DNA of 64,000 bases, taken from Microvenator marinus. GTDB lineage: Bacteria; Myxococcota_A; Bradymonadia; Bradymonadales; Bradymonadaceae. The DNA lies in assembly GCF_007993755.1 (NCBI RefSeq), contig NZ_CP042467.1:2814001-2878000 (forward strand), given 5' to 3'. The notes beneath the pieces were generated by a model. That model was not told where the DNA came from, ran no database searches, and saw only the letters and a program-made list of their open reading frames with translations. A program made the translations under genes and the position numbers. Of the stretch, positions 18,002-26,088 are shown in pieces; position 1 is the first letter of the stretch; each line of letters starts with the position of its first letter.

Positions 18002-18913
18002 TTATTCGCAAAAAAGTTCAAGCGACGCTGAGTTGAATACACCATCGTCAAAGTCAGTGAAGTCATCCTCAATTACAAGCGTCCAGGTTCCGTCCCCGGT
18101 TATACCTGAAAACGTTGTCTCAAGATCGGGGATCAAGAAGTAGTCTTCACTCGTGAGCGCTTCGAGGTGCGAGAAATACCCAACAACGTCGTCTGTCGAG
18201 TCAAACGCTGAGTCGGCAAGGAGCAGTTCTTCTGCACTTGGAGCGGTAAGAGTAAAGATGAGGTCGCCACGAAAGACGTGGGTGACATCCACGTTGAGCC
18301 CTACAAACTCTACAACCGAGCACCCAGTCACATCAAAGGTTACAGTGACGATCGGTGTGTCACCGTCGATTGTGGTCACGTCTGGCGTTCCCACTACGGT
18401 GACATCTGGAGTTGGAGGTGTTACTTCGACGTCGAAGGTATAGTTTGCGGTTCTGCAACCATCATCCGCGATGACCGAGTAAGACTGAATTCCAACGACA
18501 CTGGTGTCGATGAGGTATTCACCGACGTTGGTTCCTTCCTCTGGGTCAGTTCCGACCCAGATGATATCCGCATCCACTGGGCCATCATCGTTGGTCACGT
18601 TCAGCGTGAATACAGCATCTGCAGCGCCGAACTCCACGGTGTTCCCATTTGCTTCCACAATGAGTGCCGATGCGCCGTCGCATTCACCTTCGACACCGGG
18701 CTCACCGGTCTCACCGTCTTGACCAGGTTCACCGGCCGGTCCTTGAGGACCTTGAGGGCCTTCGTCACCCGCGGGACCTGTTGGTCCAGCTGGGCCATCG
18801 GGTCCGGCCTCACCGACCGGTCCTTGAGGACCTTCGGGTCCTGGCCCACCATCTTCACCACCACAAGCACCAACCATGGCACTGAGGAGGCATATCATGA
18901 GCGTTTTCTTCAT
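18002..18913 (-). CDS. Collagen-like lipoprotein with P-like domain
   Basis: 303-residue lipoprotein starting at the ATG at 18913, which has AAGGAG five bases upstream; the upstream ATG (18970) would bury the signal peptide. Lipobox VGAC (Cys17). Residues 22-75 are 18 Gly-X-Y triplets, the same number as in the downstream paralogue. A small Ig-like region (about 80-165) precedes a P/Homo-B-like C-terminal domain ([38 protein letters not shown]). First gene of the pair; it lacks the DUF4397 part found in its partner. Confidence 0.84.
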
Positions 18914-19099
18914 GCTCTCTCCTTTGGATAAGAGGTTTAATTTGCTTACAAGCGGCTGCAACGTAATCATAGGTCATACACGATGCAACTCAATTCGATC
19001 CGATTCAGCGCGATTGGACGAAAGCGCCTGAATTTTCATTGTGCAAATGGCCGGGTCCAAGTATTTCTTTAGAAGACGACGGCTCAAATCGGACACAAT

Positions 19100-19969
19100 A
19101 TGTTGAAGTACTTATTGCTCGCGCTATTCGTAATCGGGACAGGGTGTGAATCCCCGGCTGCCACTGCTACGCTCACACTGAACGTGGCCGAGCTTGGCCC
19201 GCGGGACGTGTCCAATGGACAACTTACCGCCTTAGTCCAACTCAGCGGTACGTGTTCCCAAGGCCCCTGTGACCCGAATCCTTGTACTGCTGATAGCAAA
19301 ACTCGTTGTCTTGCTCAAGGCACTGTTTTTAGGTGTGATTGTCCGGCCGGCACAAGTTTGAACTCTGAGGGCGAATGTGTTGCAGACGATCGCTGCACAC
19401 CAACCTTCTGCGGCGGAAACGGCCTTTGCGAAACAGTTGAGGAAGTTCCGACTTGCGCGTGCAGTGTCGGCCATACCGGCACCAATTGTGAGACCTGTGA
19501 CGAAACCGCAGGCTTCTACAGCGATGGCTTTGGCGGGTGTACCGATGTGTTTGACGTATGCCGCTCGGGTCAAGGTGGCGAAGAGTGGGCGCAGATGATG
19601 CTCGAGGCCGAGGAGTCGCTTGGGCGCGCACCGACTGAAATCGAGCTCGTGAGTGCACAAGTTCGGGTTGCCGAAGGCAGCGCCTCGGGTGCGCGCTCAT
19701 GGGCCTACCTTTGGACGGACCGCCTGCACCTGATTCTGGAGCCGGAGAACGAGCCCTTTGTTGAGGCCGGAAGCGTGAAAATCCCGGCTGAGTCGGCGGG
19801 CCTTCGGGCACTCGATTTTGACGTCACGGTAGAGCGACCAACGTTTACAACCGAGCCCAAGTATTTTGAGGGCAACTACTCGGTTGGGCTCACGGGGCCA
19901 ACCGAACGCCGAGGAAGCGAGCCGTTCAATCTTGACGCTGAGATCGTGCTCGAGTTCGAAGTCTACTGA
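19100..19969 (+). CDS. EGF-like Cys-rich lipoprotein
   Basis: 289-residue lipoprotein (MLKYLLLALFVIGTGC, Cys16). Two EGF-like modules are visible: CDPNPCTADSKTRC...CDCPAG (about 57-85) and CTPTFCGGNGLCETVEEVPTC-x-C (about 98-120), the second followed by CSVGHTGTNCETC. The C-terminal 130 residues are a beta-rich domain without a name (VAEGSASGARSWAYLWTDRL). Probably an outer-membrane surface protein with a binding role. Its stop overlaps the CPBP protease start by one base, so the genes are coupled. Confidence 0.72.
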   Translation: MLKYLLLALFVIGTGCESPAATATLTLNVAELGPRDVSNGQLTALVQLSGTCSQGPCDPNPCTADSKTRCLAQGTVFRCDCPAGTSLNSEGECVADDRCTPTFCGGNGLCETVEEVPTCACSVGHTGTNCETCDETAGFYSDGFGGCTDVFDVCRSGQGGEEWAQMMLEAEESLGRAPTEIELVSAQVRVAEGSASGARSWAYLWTDRLHLILEPENEPFVEAGSVKIPAESAGLRALDFDVTVERPTFTTEPKYFEGNYSVGLTGPTERRGSEPFNLDAEIVLEFEVY

Positions 19970-20751
19970 TGTCTAAGGGCCTCGGCATTGGTGTGGCGGT
20001 CTTCCTGACCACACTCCTCGCGAACATCATCATCGGCACCACGTTTGCCGCATTCCTTCCTCAGCAAGTCGCGCTGATTTTCACCCAGATTGGGGCTGTT
20101 TTCCTGCTCGCGTTCACGCTCAACAAGGTCTGGGATCAAGAGCAGGTGCCACATCAACCCCTCGGTGCCGGCTCCTACCTGGTCACAATTATTGCCCTTT
20201 TTGCGGTCGCGATCTTCGCAAACCTCTTCATGGCGGCACTGGCCGAGCTGGTACCCGCACTGCAGGCGAGCAAAGCAGAGTACGAGAAGATGGTCCGAGG
20301 GCTCTTGAGGAGCGAGGACTTCTGGCTCAACGTTTCGGCCGCCTTTGCCGTGGCCCTGGTGGCCCCTGTCTGTGAGGAATGGCTCTTCCGAGGCGCTTTG
20401 CTACGGGCACAGCTCAAAGCAGGCATGGGGGTAAGTGCGGCCATCCTGGCCAACGGATTTCTCTTTTCTGCGCTCCATCTTAACCCGATCGGGCTGATTC
20501 CACTCTGGCTCGTGGGCTCGGTGCTAGCGTGGGCCACGGTCCGAACGGGCTCGCTCTGGGTAGCCATCATCGGTCATGCAGCCCTCAACACCCTCAATGG
20601 CGTGATCTTCCCGTGGTTGATTTGGGACAACGCGGTTGAGACGACTCCTGAATTGAGTCACTTGTTGGTTGCACTTTCGGTCTTTGCGCTACTAGTCTTC
20701 GGACTCATCTTTTTTGCGAATCGTATCTACCCACGGAGACATTATGAGTGA
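19969..20751 (+). CDS. CPBP-family intramembrane metalloprotease
   Basis: 260-residue polytopic membrane protein of the CPBP/CAAX-prenyl-protease-like (ABI) family. The three active-site motifs are present: EEWLFRG (about residue 137), FSALHLNP (about 163) and HAALNTLNG (about 204). Bacterial members are glutamate metalloproteases, often tied to bacteriocin self-immunity or membrane protein turnover; here the substrate is unknown. It is translationally coupled to the lipoprotein upstream and overlaps the acyl-CoA-binding protein gene downstream by 8 bp. Confidence 0.9.
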   Translation: MSKGLGIGVAVFLTTLLANIIIGTTFAAFLPQQVALIFTQIGAVFLLAFTLNKVWDQEQVPHQPLGAGSYLVTIIALFAVAIFANLFMAALAELVPALQASKAEYEKMVRGLLRSEDFWLNVSAAFAVALVAPVCEEWLFRGALLRAQLKAGMGVSAAILANGFLFSALHLNPIGLIPLWLVGSVLAWATVRTGSLWVAIIGHAALNTLNGVIFPWLIWDNAVETTPELSHLLVALSVFALLVFGLIFFANRIYPRRHYE

Positions 20752-21049: not shown

Positions 21050-24000
21050 ATGAAATCTTTCAAATTCCCTTCTCCTCTTCTACTTTTTGCGTTGTTGGTG
21101 GCGTGTTCCACGGACGAGTGTTCGTGCGAAGGCTGGGAGACGCGCGGCTACCCGGCGAGTCGGCTTGAACAGACGGTGCCGTCGGCTGGGCAGGTGCGAC
21201 TGACGCCCTCGGGCATCGACTTTGTGGACCAGCAAGTTCCGTATTTGCTCGACCAGTTCTTAGTCGACGGTCTGAACTTCTGCATTCCTCCAGACACGTC
21301 TGGAAACCCCGATATCTGCGTGGACAGTACGTGTTCGAGCGGCCAGCCTGGCTGTCAGGTTGGACTCATTTTGGAAGACCGCGAGATTCGTACCGTCCCC
21401 AATAACCGCCTTGAGATCGAGCTCACGATCAGCATCAACCAGCGCCTGAATTTCGACTACAGCACCTTCATCGGCACCGTAAACTGCTACGTCCAAGTCT
21501 TTAAAGACGGAGCGTCCGAGTCTACTCGTGCGGATATCGTGGGCACTGTGCCGATCACGCTCGGAATTGACGGCGCATCGGCCACCAAAGAGCTAACCAT
21601 TGATATTGGGGATGTGGACGTCAATTTGGACGACGTAGACTTCAAGATTCACGGCCGCGGAAACGTAGGCGATACGATCGCTTGCGAGGGCGCGAGCCTT
21701 GTACGTGGACTCTTTCGGAGCACCATCGAAAATCAGATTAAGGGCATCCTGAACGACACGGTGGGCGGCATAGCCGACGAACAAACCTGCACGCGTTGCG
21801 GCGGGGAGTTCGGTGCGTGTGCGGCCGGAAGCTGTCAGGATGGGATTTGCAGATACCCCTCAAGTGCCTGTGTCCCGCGACCCCTCGGGGTTGAAGGAAG
21901 GCTTGGACTTGGCGGATTGCTCGGAGACTTCACGGCTGCCCCAGCAGCGTCCGTGGACGTCATCGCAAAGGCTGGCGACCACGCCCAGGTGAATACGGGC
22001 GTAAGTGTTGGGATGCGTCTTGGCGCGGACCCAGTGGCCATCAACCAATGTATTCCTGCCGACCCAACCAGGCGGCCGTCTAACAATGCCGTGCCCGTTT
22101 CGCCGGTCATCAACGCGGATCGCACCCCCGACGACCGTCCGTTTCACCTCGGAATCGGCATCCATCAAAGCGCAGTTGAGCAGATCCTCTGGTCAACTTG
22201 GGCCAGTGGTGTCGCGTGTTTGGACGTTTCTACCGACGACGTTGACCAGTTGAATACCTCGACTTTTGCTCTGCCAGCCCCTTCGGTACGCGACCTCATC
22301 ACGCCTCAGTCCACGGCCCAGATGGCGATTGTGCCGCAAAAGGCTCCACGCGTGGTTTTCGGCGAGAACACCGTGACCGAGTCGGGAGGCACCTATGAGG
22401 TCAACCAGCCGCTTATCGAGCTCATCTGGGAGGATTTGGACATTCATATCTTCGGCTGGGCTCAAGAGCGCATGCTGCGCCTCTTTACGCTGCGCGTGGA
22501 CTTCAGGCTCCCGGTCGCGTTGGTCCCTGATGGGCAAGGAAATATTCTGCCCGTGATGCCGGCCCTTGAAACTGGACTCACCAATATTCGAGTTCAGCGC
22601 ACCGAACTACTCACCGAAGACCCTCAGCGCATCATCGACCTTGTGCCACTCCTTATTGGTTTTGCGGGGCCTCAACTCGCCGGTGCAATTCCGGAGGCCG
22701 TTGCTGTGCCTGAGTTTCTGGGCTTTCGCCTGGACCTTGAACAACGCGATATCATCGGCGCCGACAAGAACGAGTTCCTGGCCATTTTTGCAAGGCTTGA
22801 GCGCACCACCCAAAACCAAACCGTGGGCGTGCAAGCCTTTGTCCGGGGCCATGAGCTCGACTTGAGCCGGCGCACGCCCTCAGGGTTGATTCGACCCACA
22901 CTCGTGGTTGATGCCGGGGCGTTGGCGCCTGGGCTTGGGACCGAGAGTTCGCCGGAATTCGAGTATCAATACCGGGTGGACGGCGGCTTCTGGAGCATGT
23001 TCGAGAGAGGGCCTGAACTTCGGATTTCCGATCCCCTTTTGATGGCTCAGGGGCGCCACAAAGTGGACATTCGGGCGCGACTCAAAGGTGAGGTCGCGGC
23101 GGTTTCCAAGGTTGTGACGTTGGATGTTGATATCGATATCGAGCCTCCAACCATCGAGACAAACACGAGCTCGGCAGGGGTGAAAATCTCCGCAGAAGAC
23201 ATCAACCCCACCGAGGTGCGATGGCGCGGCCCGGATGGCCAATGGAGCCCGTGGAGCGCGAAGACCGAGATTGATGTCCAAAAACTTCCCCGAGGCCCGC
23301 GAGTCGTGGTTGAGGTGGAAGCTCGTGACGCGTTTGGCCTTCGCTCGTACCAAGAGGTGGAAGTAGACACGAGCTCGACGCCGGTGAAGTCCGGCTGTGC
23401 CGTGGGCGGAGCGGGCTTGGGCCCCCTCTGGCTCATCGGATTTGCATTATTCTTTGGCCGGCGAAGGCGCTTTGCTGCCCTCATCGCCGCCCTTTTTCTG
23501 GGCACCGTGGGATGCAAAGGTGAGATTTCGACCAACGCCACGCAACGCTGTTTTGGGCCGGAATGTCAGGTGGAACAAGCCTGCGAAGTTGACTCAGATT
23601 GCGCCGGCATCTGCCCCGAAAACACCGGCGGTATCTGCGAGAACGGCTCCTGCCAATGTGTGCTCGCCTGTGCCGGAGGCTGCGGCGACGGAGAATTTTG
23701 CTGTCTTGGCACCGGCGCGTGTGTGGACGAAATGCCGGTATGCGAACAAGCCTGTGACGCGGGCTATGAGGCGCGAGTCGTGGGCACTCCGAACCGCATG
23801 ACCTGTGCAATCGACGGGGGTGGGTGTGAGTGTGTGGCCCTTCCGCCAATCCCGATCGGCGTACACGGCCCGTACCTCTCCATGGACTCCAACGACAGCC
23901 TGACGGTTCTCGCCACCTACAACCATACCTACAAGGACCTAATGGTGGGGCGAGTTAACGCGGACAACACCATCACCTGGTCCTTTGTGGACGGCGTGCC

Positions 24001-24952
24001 TGAGACCGGTGCCATCGAGGGCGACCCTGAGGGCTGGCGCGGTGGCACCAAAGCTGCCGGAGACGCGGTGGGCACGCATACCGCTATCGCGATAGATGCC
24101 GCGGGAGGGCTGCACGTGGTGTACCGAGACGAGACCAATGAGGTTCTGAAATACGCCAAGGGCTTGCCTGTGGGCGATGCGTGGGACTGGCAGTTCGAGG
24201 TGCTCGAAGAAGCTGGCGACCCGAGATGGCCTTCAATCGTTGTAGAAGCAGACACGGTCCACGTGATCTATTCGCGGGAAGGCGCTATGAGCGAGCTCGT
24301 TCATCGGTCATTTGCGGTGAGCGCAGGGGCCGCAGGGGCCGCAGGGGCGAGCGAGACGGTCGTAGACAGCGCCGAGCCCACCGAGCCGACCAAGGACTAC
24401 CCGGCGCGAATGGGCGCCTACACCTCGCTCTCGCGGATTCCTGGCGGAGGCGTCTTTGCAGTGTGGTGGAACGGAGCCACAAGACGTGTCGGACGCGCGG
24501 AGTTCAGTGGGCAGTGGTCGGAGCCAGAATATCTGGCTGCAGGCAGTGGTCCTTACGCTTCGGGCCAGGTGGACGCTCAGGGCGCGCACCATATCGTCTT
24601 TCAACAGAGCTCGGGGCTTCGATACTCCAAGTTTGGAGACACTACCGAGACGTTGCGTGTGCATGACGGTCTTCGGGACTCGGGCGAGTATTTCACCGGA
24701 ACTATCGGCGAGTCGGCGCGCATTGTTTTGAACGGCGCGCAGGTCATTGTCGCATTTCAGGATGCGTTCGATCGAGCCATCTGGTTTGCGGAGATTCAAG
24801 GTGAGGCCTTCCAGGCATCGAAGGTCCCGCTCACTGCCACCGAGGCGCACGGGCTCTTCACAGTGCTTAGCCATAACGGTCAGTTGGCTGCGCATTTCGT
24901 GGTGGATCGCACCAAGGAGCCGTGGGGGTTCGTAAGAGTCGATTCTCGTTGA
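21050..24952 (+). CDS. 1300-residue exported protein joining a CTERM-tagged protein to a lipoprotein
   Basis: Single uninterrupted frame that reads like two exported proteins in series. Part 1 (1-807) begins with a lipoprotein-like signal (FALLVAC, Cys19), contains beta-rich domains and ends in a MYXO-CTERM-like tag: GC (782-783), a hydrophobic stretch GLGPLWLIGFALFFG and RRRR (804-807). Part 2 follows at once with a second signal-like stretch FAALIAALFLGTVGC (lipobox Cys822), a Cys-rich region (about 835-930) and a propeller-like C-terminal domain. An in-frame TTG at 23417 has GGAG five bases upstream and could start part 2 alone. True fusion, internal start or a sequencing error removing a stop are all possible. 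No function is recognised. Confidence 0.75.
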   Translation: MKSFKFPSPLLLFALLVACSTDECSCEGWETRGYPASRLEQTVPSAGQVRLTPSGIDFVDQQVPYLLDQFLVDGLNFCIPPDTSGNPDICVDSTCSSGQPGCQVGLILEDREIRTVPNNRLEIELTISINQRLNFDYSTFIGTVNCYVQVFKDGASESTRADIVGTVPITLGIDGASATKELTIDIGDVDVNLDDVDFKIHGRGNVGDTIACEGASLVRGLFRSTIENQIKGILNDTVGGIADEQTCTRCGGEFGACAAGSCQDGICRYPSSACVPRPLGVEGRLGLGGLLGDFTAAPAASVDVIAKAGDHAQVNTGVSVGMRLGADPVAINQCIPADPTRRPSNNAVPVSPVINADRTPDDRPFHLGIGIHQSAVEQILWSTWASGVACLDVSTDDVDQLNTSTFALPAPSVRDLITPQSTAQMAIVPQKAPRVVFGENTVTESGGTYEVNQPLIELIWEDLDIHIFGWAQERMLRLFTLRVDFRLPVALVPDGQGNILPVMPALETGLTNIRVQRTELLTEDPQRIIDLVPLLIGFAGPQLAGAIPEAVAVPEFLGFRLDLEQRDIIGADKNEFLAIFARLERTTQNQTVGVQAFVRGHELDLSRRTPSGLIRPTLVVDAGALAPGLGTESSPEFEYQYRVDGGFWSMFERGPELRISDPLLMAQGRHKVDIRARLKGEVAAVSKVVTLDVDIDIEPPTIETNTSSAGVKISAEDINPTEVRWRGPDGQWSPWSAKTEIDVQKLPRGPRVVVEVEARDAFGLRSYQEVEVDTSSTPVKSGCAVGGAGLGPLWLIGFALFFGRRRRFAALIAALFLGTVGCKGEISTNATQRCFGPECQVEQACEVDSDCAGICPENTGGICENGSCQCVLACAGGCGDGEFCCLGTGACVDEMPVCEQACDAGYEARVVGTPNRMTCAIDGGGCECVALPPIPIGVHGPYLSMDSNDSLTVLATYNHTYKDLMVGRVNADNTITWSFVDGVPETGAIEGDPEGWRGGTKAAGDAVGTHTAIAIDAAGGLHVVYRDETNEVLKYAKGLPVGDAWDWQFEVLEEAGDPRWPSIVVEADTVHVIYSREGAMSELVHRSFAVSAGAAGAAGASETVVDSAEPTEPTKDYPARMGAYTSLSRIPGGGVFAVWWNGATRRVGRAEFSGQWSEPEYLAAGSGPYASGQVDAQGAHHIVFQQSSGLRYSKFGDTTETLRVHDGLRDSGEYFTGTIGESARIVLNGAQVIVAFQDAFDRAIWFAEIQGEAFQASKVPLTATEAHGLFTVLSHNGQLAAHFVVDRTKEPWGFVRVDSR

Positions 24953-25341: not shown

Positions 25342-25626
25342 TTAGGATCCTGTCGCGAAAAAATCGGCTACGCGTCGTACCGGTACTTCACAACACGGAT
25401 AAAGAATCGGACAGAGCTCCACCCATCCATGGTGATCTTGTCTCACCGCACGCCCGAACGCGTGCTCAAGGAGCCCAATATGTTTGAGCCTTAGCACCCG
25501 TCTGCAGTGGTTGTGGCTGGCTGACGGCGAGCAACTCGCCACGAGGTCGTAGCCGCGCGACGCAGGCGATGCCGGAGCATCGTCGAGGAGTGAGGCGAAG
25601 AGATCGTTGTGAGGGGCCGGCGTCAA
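25342..25626 (-). pseudogene. Fragment with the Rpn-like N-terminal motif
   Basis: Minus-strand frame starting near 25626 with TPAPHNDLFASLLDDAPASPAS. The PHNDLFASLLDDA core is identical to that in the protein at 5089-5424, and its three base differences (GCT/GCC, TCG/TCA, GCA/GCT) are all synonymous, which shows past coding selection on this strand. The homology starts upstream with VHSD-EQ and fades after about 40 codons. The rest of the frame (to 25342) has no support. Likely the 5' scrap of an Rpn-like nuclease gene. Confidence 0.4.
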
Positions 25627-26088
25627 CTGTTCAGAATCACTGTGGACGGGTGCTGCACCTCACATAGAGGAATCTGGAGGTGGGGATCGGTGGAATGCGG
25701 CCCTATCTTCATCGTCGCCACCACGGCTCTCGAAGATAGACCTGAGTTTGAGTGGATGAAGATGACCACTCGCCTACCTCAAACTCCAGGCGAGTTAGAC
25801 AAGGCGGCGAGATTGATAAGTGAAAACATAAACGATAAAATAAAACCCGAAGATTTGGAGAAGACCATGTTTGATTTCATGTATGTAGATGGGGTGAACG
25901 TTCTGACGTACGCCGAAGAGCAGAAGAAGGCCGCCGAAGAGCAGAAGAAGGCCGCCGAAGAGCAGAAGAAGGCCGCCGAAGAGCAGAAGAGGTTTGCTGA
26001 AGAGGTTTCTCGTGAGCTTCAAGAGGCTAGACGGGAAATCGAGGCACTGAAGGCTGAGCTAAAGGGCACCGTCAAATCCGACGAATAG
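25609..26088 (+). CDS. Coiled-coil protein or C-terminal gene remnant
   Basis: Open frame of 159 codons from a GTG at 25609; the ATG at 25756 (MKMTTRLPQTPGELDKAA) is an alternative start. Residues about 60-100 are a mixed helical stretch (LISENINDKIKPEDLEKTMF), followed by perfect seven-residue coiled-coil repeats EEQKKAA and a helical tail (SRELQEARREIEALKAELKG). Ribosome sites are weak. Residues 30-55 (GPIFIVATTALEDRPEFEW) read like the inside of a larger protein, so this may be the 3' end of a gene that lost its front half. No family is recognised. Confidence 0.4.
   Translation: MRGRRQLFRITVDGCCTSHRGIWRWGSVECGPIFIVATTALEDRPEFEWMKMTTRLPQTPGELDKAARLISENINDKIKPEDLEKTMFDFMYVDGVNVLTYAEEQKKAAEEQKKAAEEQKKAAEEQKRFAEEVSRELQEARREIEALKAELKGTVKSDE
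25912..25991 (+). repeat. 21-bp perfect tandem repeats inside a coding region
   Basis: The 21-mer GCCGAAGAGCAGAAGAAGGC(C) occurs three times in a row without a base change and continues into a partial fourth copy. It encodes EEQKKAA heptads. The lack of silent differences points to recent slippage or copy-number change. Confidence 0.8.

Follow-up and report, generated by a model that had tools for sequence, protein, structure and literature searches.

The open reading frame at 21050-24952 (+) of the window, the 64,000 nucleotide stretch of Microvenator marinus DNA analysed here, runs for 1300 codons without a stop and probably encodes the precursor of two lipoproteins, which would be exported as one chain and cut on both sides of a discarded hairpin to give two separately anchored products. 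The 1300 amino acid protein, which as a whole is recognized by neither Pfam nor NCBIfam, begins with a lipoprotein signal peptide and the lipobox LLVAC (21050-21106; Cys19), a feature absent from an earlier note on this DNA. The predicted first product (P1) extends from Cys19 to approximately Cys783 (21104-23398). An internal MYXO-CTERM-like tag (23393-23470) is formed by residues 782-807, GCAVGGAGLGPLWLIGFALFFGRRRR, comprising Gly782-Cys783 (Cys783 at 23396-23398), a hydrophobic helix (789-803) and four arginines (RRRR, 804-807). Residues 808-822, FAALIAALFLGTVGC, follow immediately and, together with the same four arginines, which are common to the end of the tag and the second signal, constitute an internal lipoprotein signal peptide, RRRR-FAALIAALFLGTVG-C (23459-23515), with the lipobox Cys822 at 23513-23515. 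The predicted second product (P2) extends from Cys822 to the end of the frame (23513-24949). The tag at residues 782-807 and the lipobox Cys822 had been pointed out in the earlier note; both are confirmed in the sequence, and their conservation places them beyond chance.

The tag has the sequence features of MYXO-CTERM, namely a motif with an invariant Cys and a hydrophobic helix followed by an Arg-rich stretch, but 493 residues follow it, so that it does not occupy the extreme C-terminal position. The internal signal likewise comprises a basic region, a hydrophobic core and a lipobox Cys, and differs from a type II signal peptide in its location alone. The tag is C-terminal only for the P1 proteins of relatives in which the two parts are separate genes, where the lipobox signal of P2 is likewise N-terminal. 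The tag of the window protein itself fell below the thresholds of the curated MYXO-CTERM models and was left unscored, which was counted against cleavage at two sites. Tags of three relatives exceed the cut-offs of these models (TIGR03901/TIGR03382), scoring 24.5 bits in L028 (cut-off 20), and 19.6 and 16.5 bits in L036 and L047, respectively (cut-off 15.85).

In an alignment of 29 sequences, in which the relatives share 26-51% identity with the window protein, Cys783 and Cys822 are invariant, Arg805 and Cys19 are nearly invariant (Cys19 being at least 90% conserved in alignment A1), and the hairpin residues other than the two cysteines are mostly variable. Both the tag Cys and the lipobox are present in all of the fused family members examined (67/67), phylum-wide; the hairpin of one of the relatives, L057, was located by eye, the automatic finder having chosen a wrong position. 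The residue preceding the lipobox Cys is Gly or Ala in 45 of the 48 scored relatives, while in the other three the script had taken a Cys within the helix as the lipobox Cys. A paralogue with the same joint is encoded in the same genome (G000:C1:2774227-2778390; a frame of length 1409). The protein is present, mostly as one frame, in 44 of the 57 genomes comprising that of the window and its near relatives, and a profile run over 140 genomes of the phylum identified it in other classes as well, where the fused frames keep the hairpin. A scan for related loci with the single protein gave no match; an alignment-based search returned five, two of which belong to the Lujinxingiaceae of the order Bradymonadales.

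The earlier note asked whether the orthologues are one gene or two, and both arrangements are found. In split relatives that still have the tag, the break between the genes lies at the Arg-rich loop and P2 begins with Met followed by the lipobox, such that the segment equivalent to the internal signal peptide begins a gene of its own. The P1 stop and P2 start codons overlap as ATGA directly after the arginines in L055, L063 and L064, and as TGATG in L167, while in L041 a TGA is followed by an ATG after a short gap of approximately 20 bases. In the nine loci of family f11 (L179-L187), P1 lacks both the end domains and the tag, and P2 is a lipoprotein gene of its own, apparently starting at the P1 stop, mostly as ATGA. 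Since this family lives without a tag, P1 need not be tagged in every case, and this was counted against the two-cut model. A tree of P2 (81 rows) requires at least five changes between the fused and split states, and short branches join a fused (L065) and a split (L041) member as sisters. If the hairpin is cut at both ends, a stop codon between the neighbouring genes would be dispensable, which would explain these repeated switches.

We suggest that the N-terminal lipoprotein signal exports the whole chain and, judging from the sequence, that the tag helix would halt in the inner membrane, leaving its arginines on the cytoplasmic side. The same arginines would form the basic start of the second lipoprotein signal, the helix of which would return to the periplasmic side, giving a hairpin. 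A myxosortase, in this genome MrtP, would cut at the Cys783 tag in the manner in which MrtX cleaves terminal MYXO-CTERM tags in M. xanthus and E. coli (PMC11980579), while Lgt and LspA would lipidate and cut the chain at Cys822. The hairpin of approximately 38 residues would thereby be discarded and both parts set free. P1 would carry a lipid at its N-terminus, perhaps with another at Cys783, and P2 would be a propeller lipoprotein, for which the type II system probably provides the route to the surface. Of the readings put forward in the earlier note, the comparative evidence supports that of a natural fusion from which a tagged protein and a lipoprotein are separated after export, with cleavage as its predicted step.

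Of the proteins invoked in this account, MrtP (NF040674; 357 bits, cut-off 250), which is one of six CPBP matches, LspA (98 bits, cut-off 73.95) and the type II secretin GspD are encoded in this genome. A myxosortase core above the cut-off is present in 51 of the 53 genomes in which the family matches strongly, versus 57 of the 87 others (Fisher p ~9e-6 over 140 genomes, uncorrected for descent). The family is present in two genomes with no recognized myxosortase (G002 and G063, both incomplete assemblies), which was counted against cleavage at two sites, as was the requirement for a re-entrant hairpin if LspA is to cut a signal that is not N-terminal; no documented case of LspA acting on an internal signal peptide was found in the literature searched. 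A gene for an Rce1-like (CPBP) membrane protease lies upstream in the window (19969-20751, +) and was considered as a dedicated myxosortase. None of the myxosortase models matches its product above the cut-off, nor was the gene found as a conserved neighbour in the relative loci searched, and for these reasons it was left out of the explanation. Two further CPBP proteins in the same genome (L121:1444-2289, -; L123:997-1767, +) have the archaeomyxosortase MrtA as their best NCBIfam match, with 79 and 100 bits, respectively, where the cut-off is 200. Elsewhere in the window, a predicted lipoprotein with collagen-like GPxGPx repeats (18002-18970, -) and a short protein with repeated EEQKKAA units (25609-26088, +) are encoded.

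Release of the two parts by only one cut, whereby either the myxosortase frees P1 and the remainder of the hairpin anchors P2, or LspA releases P2 while the helix stays on P1, is considered unlikely. One enzyme alone would suffice to part the halves, and a fraction of the tagged proteins, perhaps uncleaved, is still found at the surface in mrtX mutants (PMC11980579), yet Cys783 and Cys822 are equally conserved. The sequence also makes a credible helical hairpin, the cytoplasmic loop of which is positive, and may as such remain uncut as a permanent two-helix anchor holding both halves at the inner membrane. This arrangement is quite improbable, as an anchor alone requires neither of the cysteines that are invariant in the family, P2 is a separate lipoprotein in the split relatives and the f11 loci lack any hairpin.

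A third alternative is that of overlapping genes in the same frame, with P2 produced by internal initiation, with or without the full-length product, from the TTG at 23417-23419 (+) or another codon. The earlier note had proposed a second gene starting at this TTG, and the GGAG that it described five bases upstream is indeed present (23408-23411); the overlapping starts in the split relatives also lie at the same place. In a protein started at 23417, however, the lipoprotein signal would be preceded by an additional hydrophobic stretch and the RRRR. For 66 fused genes, the segment lying 13-32 codons upstream of the lipobox was compared with control windows from within the same genes. Neither start codons (0.667 versus 0.636 in the controls) nor start codons with a Shine-Dalgarno-like site (0.121 versus 0.131) are enriched, while ATG alone is somewhat more common (0.333 versus 0.224), an excess which may merely reflect Met in hydrophobic stretches. 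Since start codons are as frequent as in the controls, these counts indicate that internal initiation is not a feature shared across the fused family, although individual genes may use it; the TTG was judged not to be a start, and production of P2 in this way is highly improbable. Finally, the loss of a stop codon between two genes by sequencing error or recent mutation, also raised in the earlier note, can be dismissed for practical purposes, as split relatives do exist but the fusion is common to the paralogue and to relatives in many families across the phylum, in independent assemblies, which refutes a recent event.

No Pfam family was found for P1, the model of which is of low confidence, shows β domains towards its end and was too weak for a structure search. 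P2 comprises a Cys-rich segment followed by a predicted β-propeller from approximately residue 933. An AlphaFold model of P2 built with six sequences (pTM 0.68; mean pLDDT 70) resembles, over model residues 112-479, PLL-type lectins and GH145-like propellers, with a Z-score of up to 26.0 for the best structural match (295 residues; rmsd 2.9) and 12-14% identity to the best matches, while no sequence match to solved structures was found. The model suggests that P2 is a β-propeller, with perhaps a putative role in sugar binding.

The joint is also found outside this family. The tags of this genome were counted by profile search and 40 tag regions were read, of which approximately 38 are ordinary terminal tags and two, besides this family, are internal (L115 and L116). 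The first of these, a frame of 5146 codons (G000:C1:2396000-2415900, -), contains a MYXO-CTERM tag, then a lipobox in frame, and continues into a second protein that is large and Cys-rich, with CNGxDDDCDG-type repeats; G004 and G029 have frames of comparable size that also include such a joint. The second (L116:8041-9756, +) is a frame of 572 codons in which the tag precedes a type I-like signal (AHA-ES), after which comes a second part resembling a barrel. A phylum-wide search with a profile of the hairpin returned further full-length joints in other proteins, and among those read, ten have a tag and then a lipobox in frame (L228, L230, L231, L233, L235, L236, L237, L240, L243 and L197, of which L197 is the frame of 5146 codons already described), with a long second part in most. 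A further candidate, L209, was rejected as a fusion, its tag being terminal. In this genome, a gene with a terminal tag is closely followed by a lipoprotein gene at three loci (L083, L100 and L110), plausibly representing the state prior to fusion.

As this in-frame joint is found repeatedly across the phylum, its bacteria probably make some of their exported proteins as protease-cut pairs. The balance of evidence tips slightly towards a broader reading, in which the hairpin of MYXO-CTERM tag and signal peptide is a general polyprotein joint in the Myxococcota that has arisen many times in unrelated families. With myxosortase and signal peptidases cutting on either side of the joint, there would be no bar to the fusion of a gene for a tagged protein with the exported gene behind it, and a single frame would yield equal amounts of two surface proteins. 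To our knowledge, exported polyproteins are rare in bacteria. The joint suggests a way in which proteases may make a stop codon dispensable, and annotation of such genes as single proteins would mislead. Whether the MYXO-CTERM Cys is lipidated, and by which enzyme, is a question raised in PMC11980579, for which the hairpin, if cut as predicted, would provide a natural two-cut substrate.

Several known systems share elements of this arrangement. NCBIfam family NF033207 is named 'midcut-by-XrtH protein', a name implying that an exosortase, an enzyme different from myxosortase, cuts these proteins in the middle; among 29 family members it matched only one, weakly (E 0.042), and no paper on it was found in the literature searched. 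FbcH of Bradyrhizobium, a cytochrome b-c1 precursor, is cut at an internal signal peptide, as is predicted for the window protein, but it has neither a sorting tag nor a lipobox; searches of the literature for internal signal peptides or lipoboxes, fbcH and lipo-invert returned nothing useful. An ArtA-processed protein of Haloferax, the tripartite tag of which is not C-terminal, and work on LPXTG cleavage are both cited for the function of mid-protein tags (PMC11980579, references 46 and 45, respectively) and, as far as that citing paper describes them, share a sorting tag away from the C-terminus, although the enzymes differ and no second lipoprotein signal is mentioned there. The MYXO-CTERM/myxosortase system (TIGR03901, TIGR03382; MrtX, MrtC, MrtP) has the Cys motif, hydrophobic helix and Arg-rich end in common with the window protein, in which, by contrast, an internal tag leads in frame into a further signal peptide and a second protein. 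The internal MYXO-CTERM of MXAN_5598 in Myxococcus xanthus has been called atypical, and perhaps a gene fusion, and the protein proposed to be processed (PMC11980579). This protein resembles the window protein in having an internal MYXO-CTERM within one frame and a proposed cut, but continues into an outer-membrane barrel with OmpA domains, whereas the second part of the window protein is a lipoprotein belonging to a phylum-wide family. L116 is the closer parallel to MXAN_5598. An internal MYXO-CTERM is already published in MXAN_5598, and the family that joins tag to lipobox is a variant of that kind.
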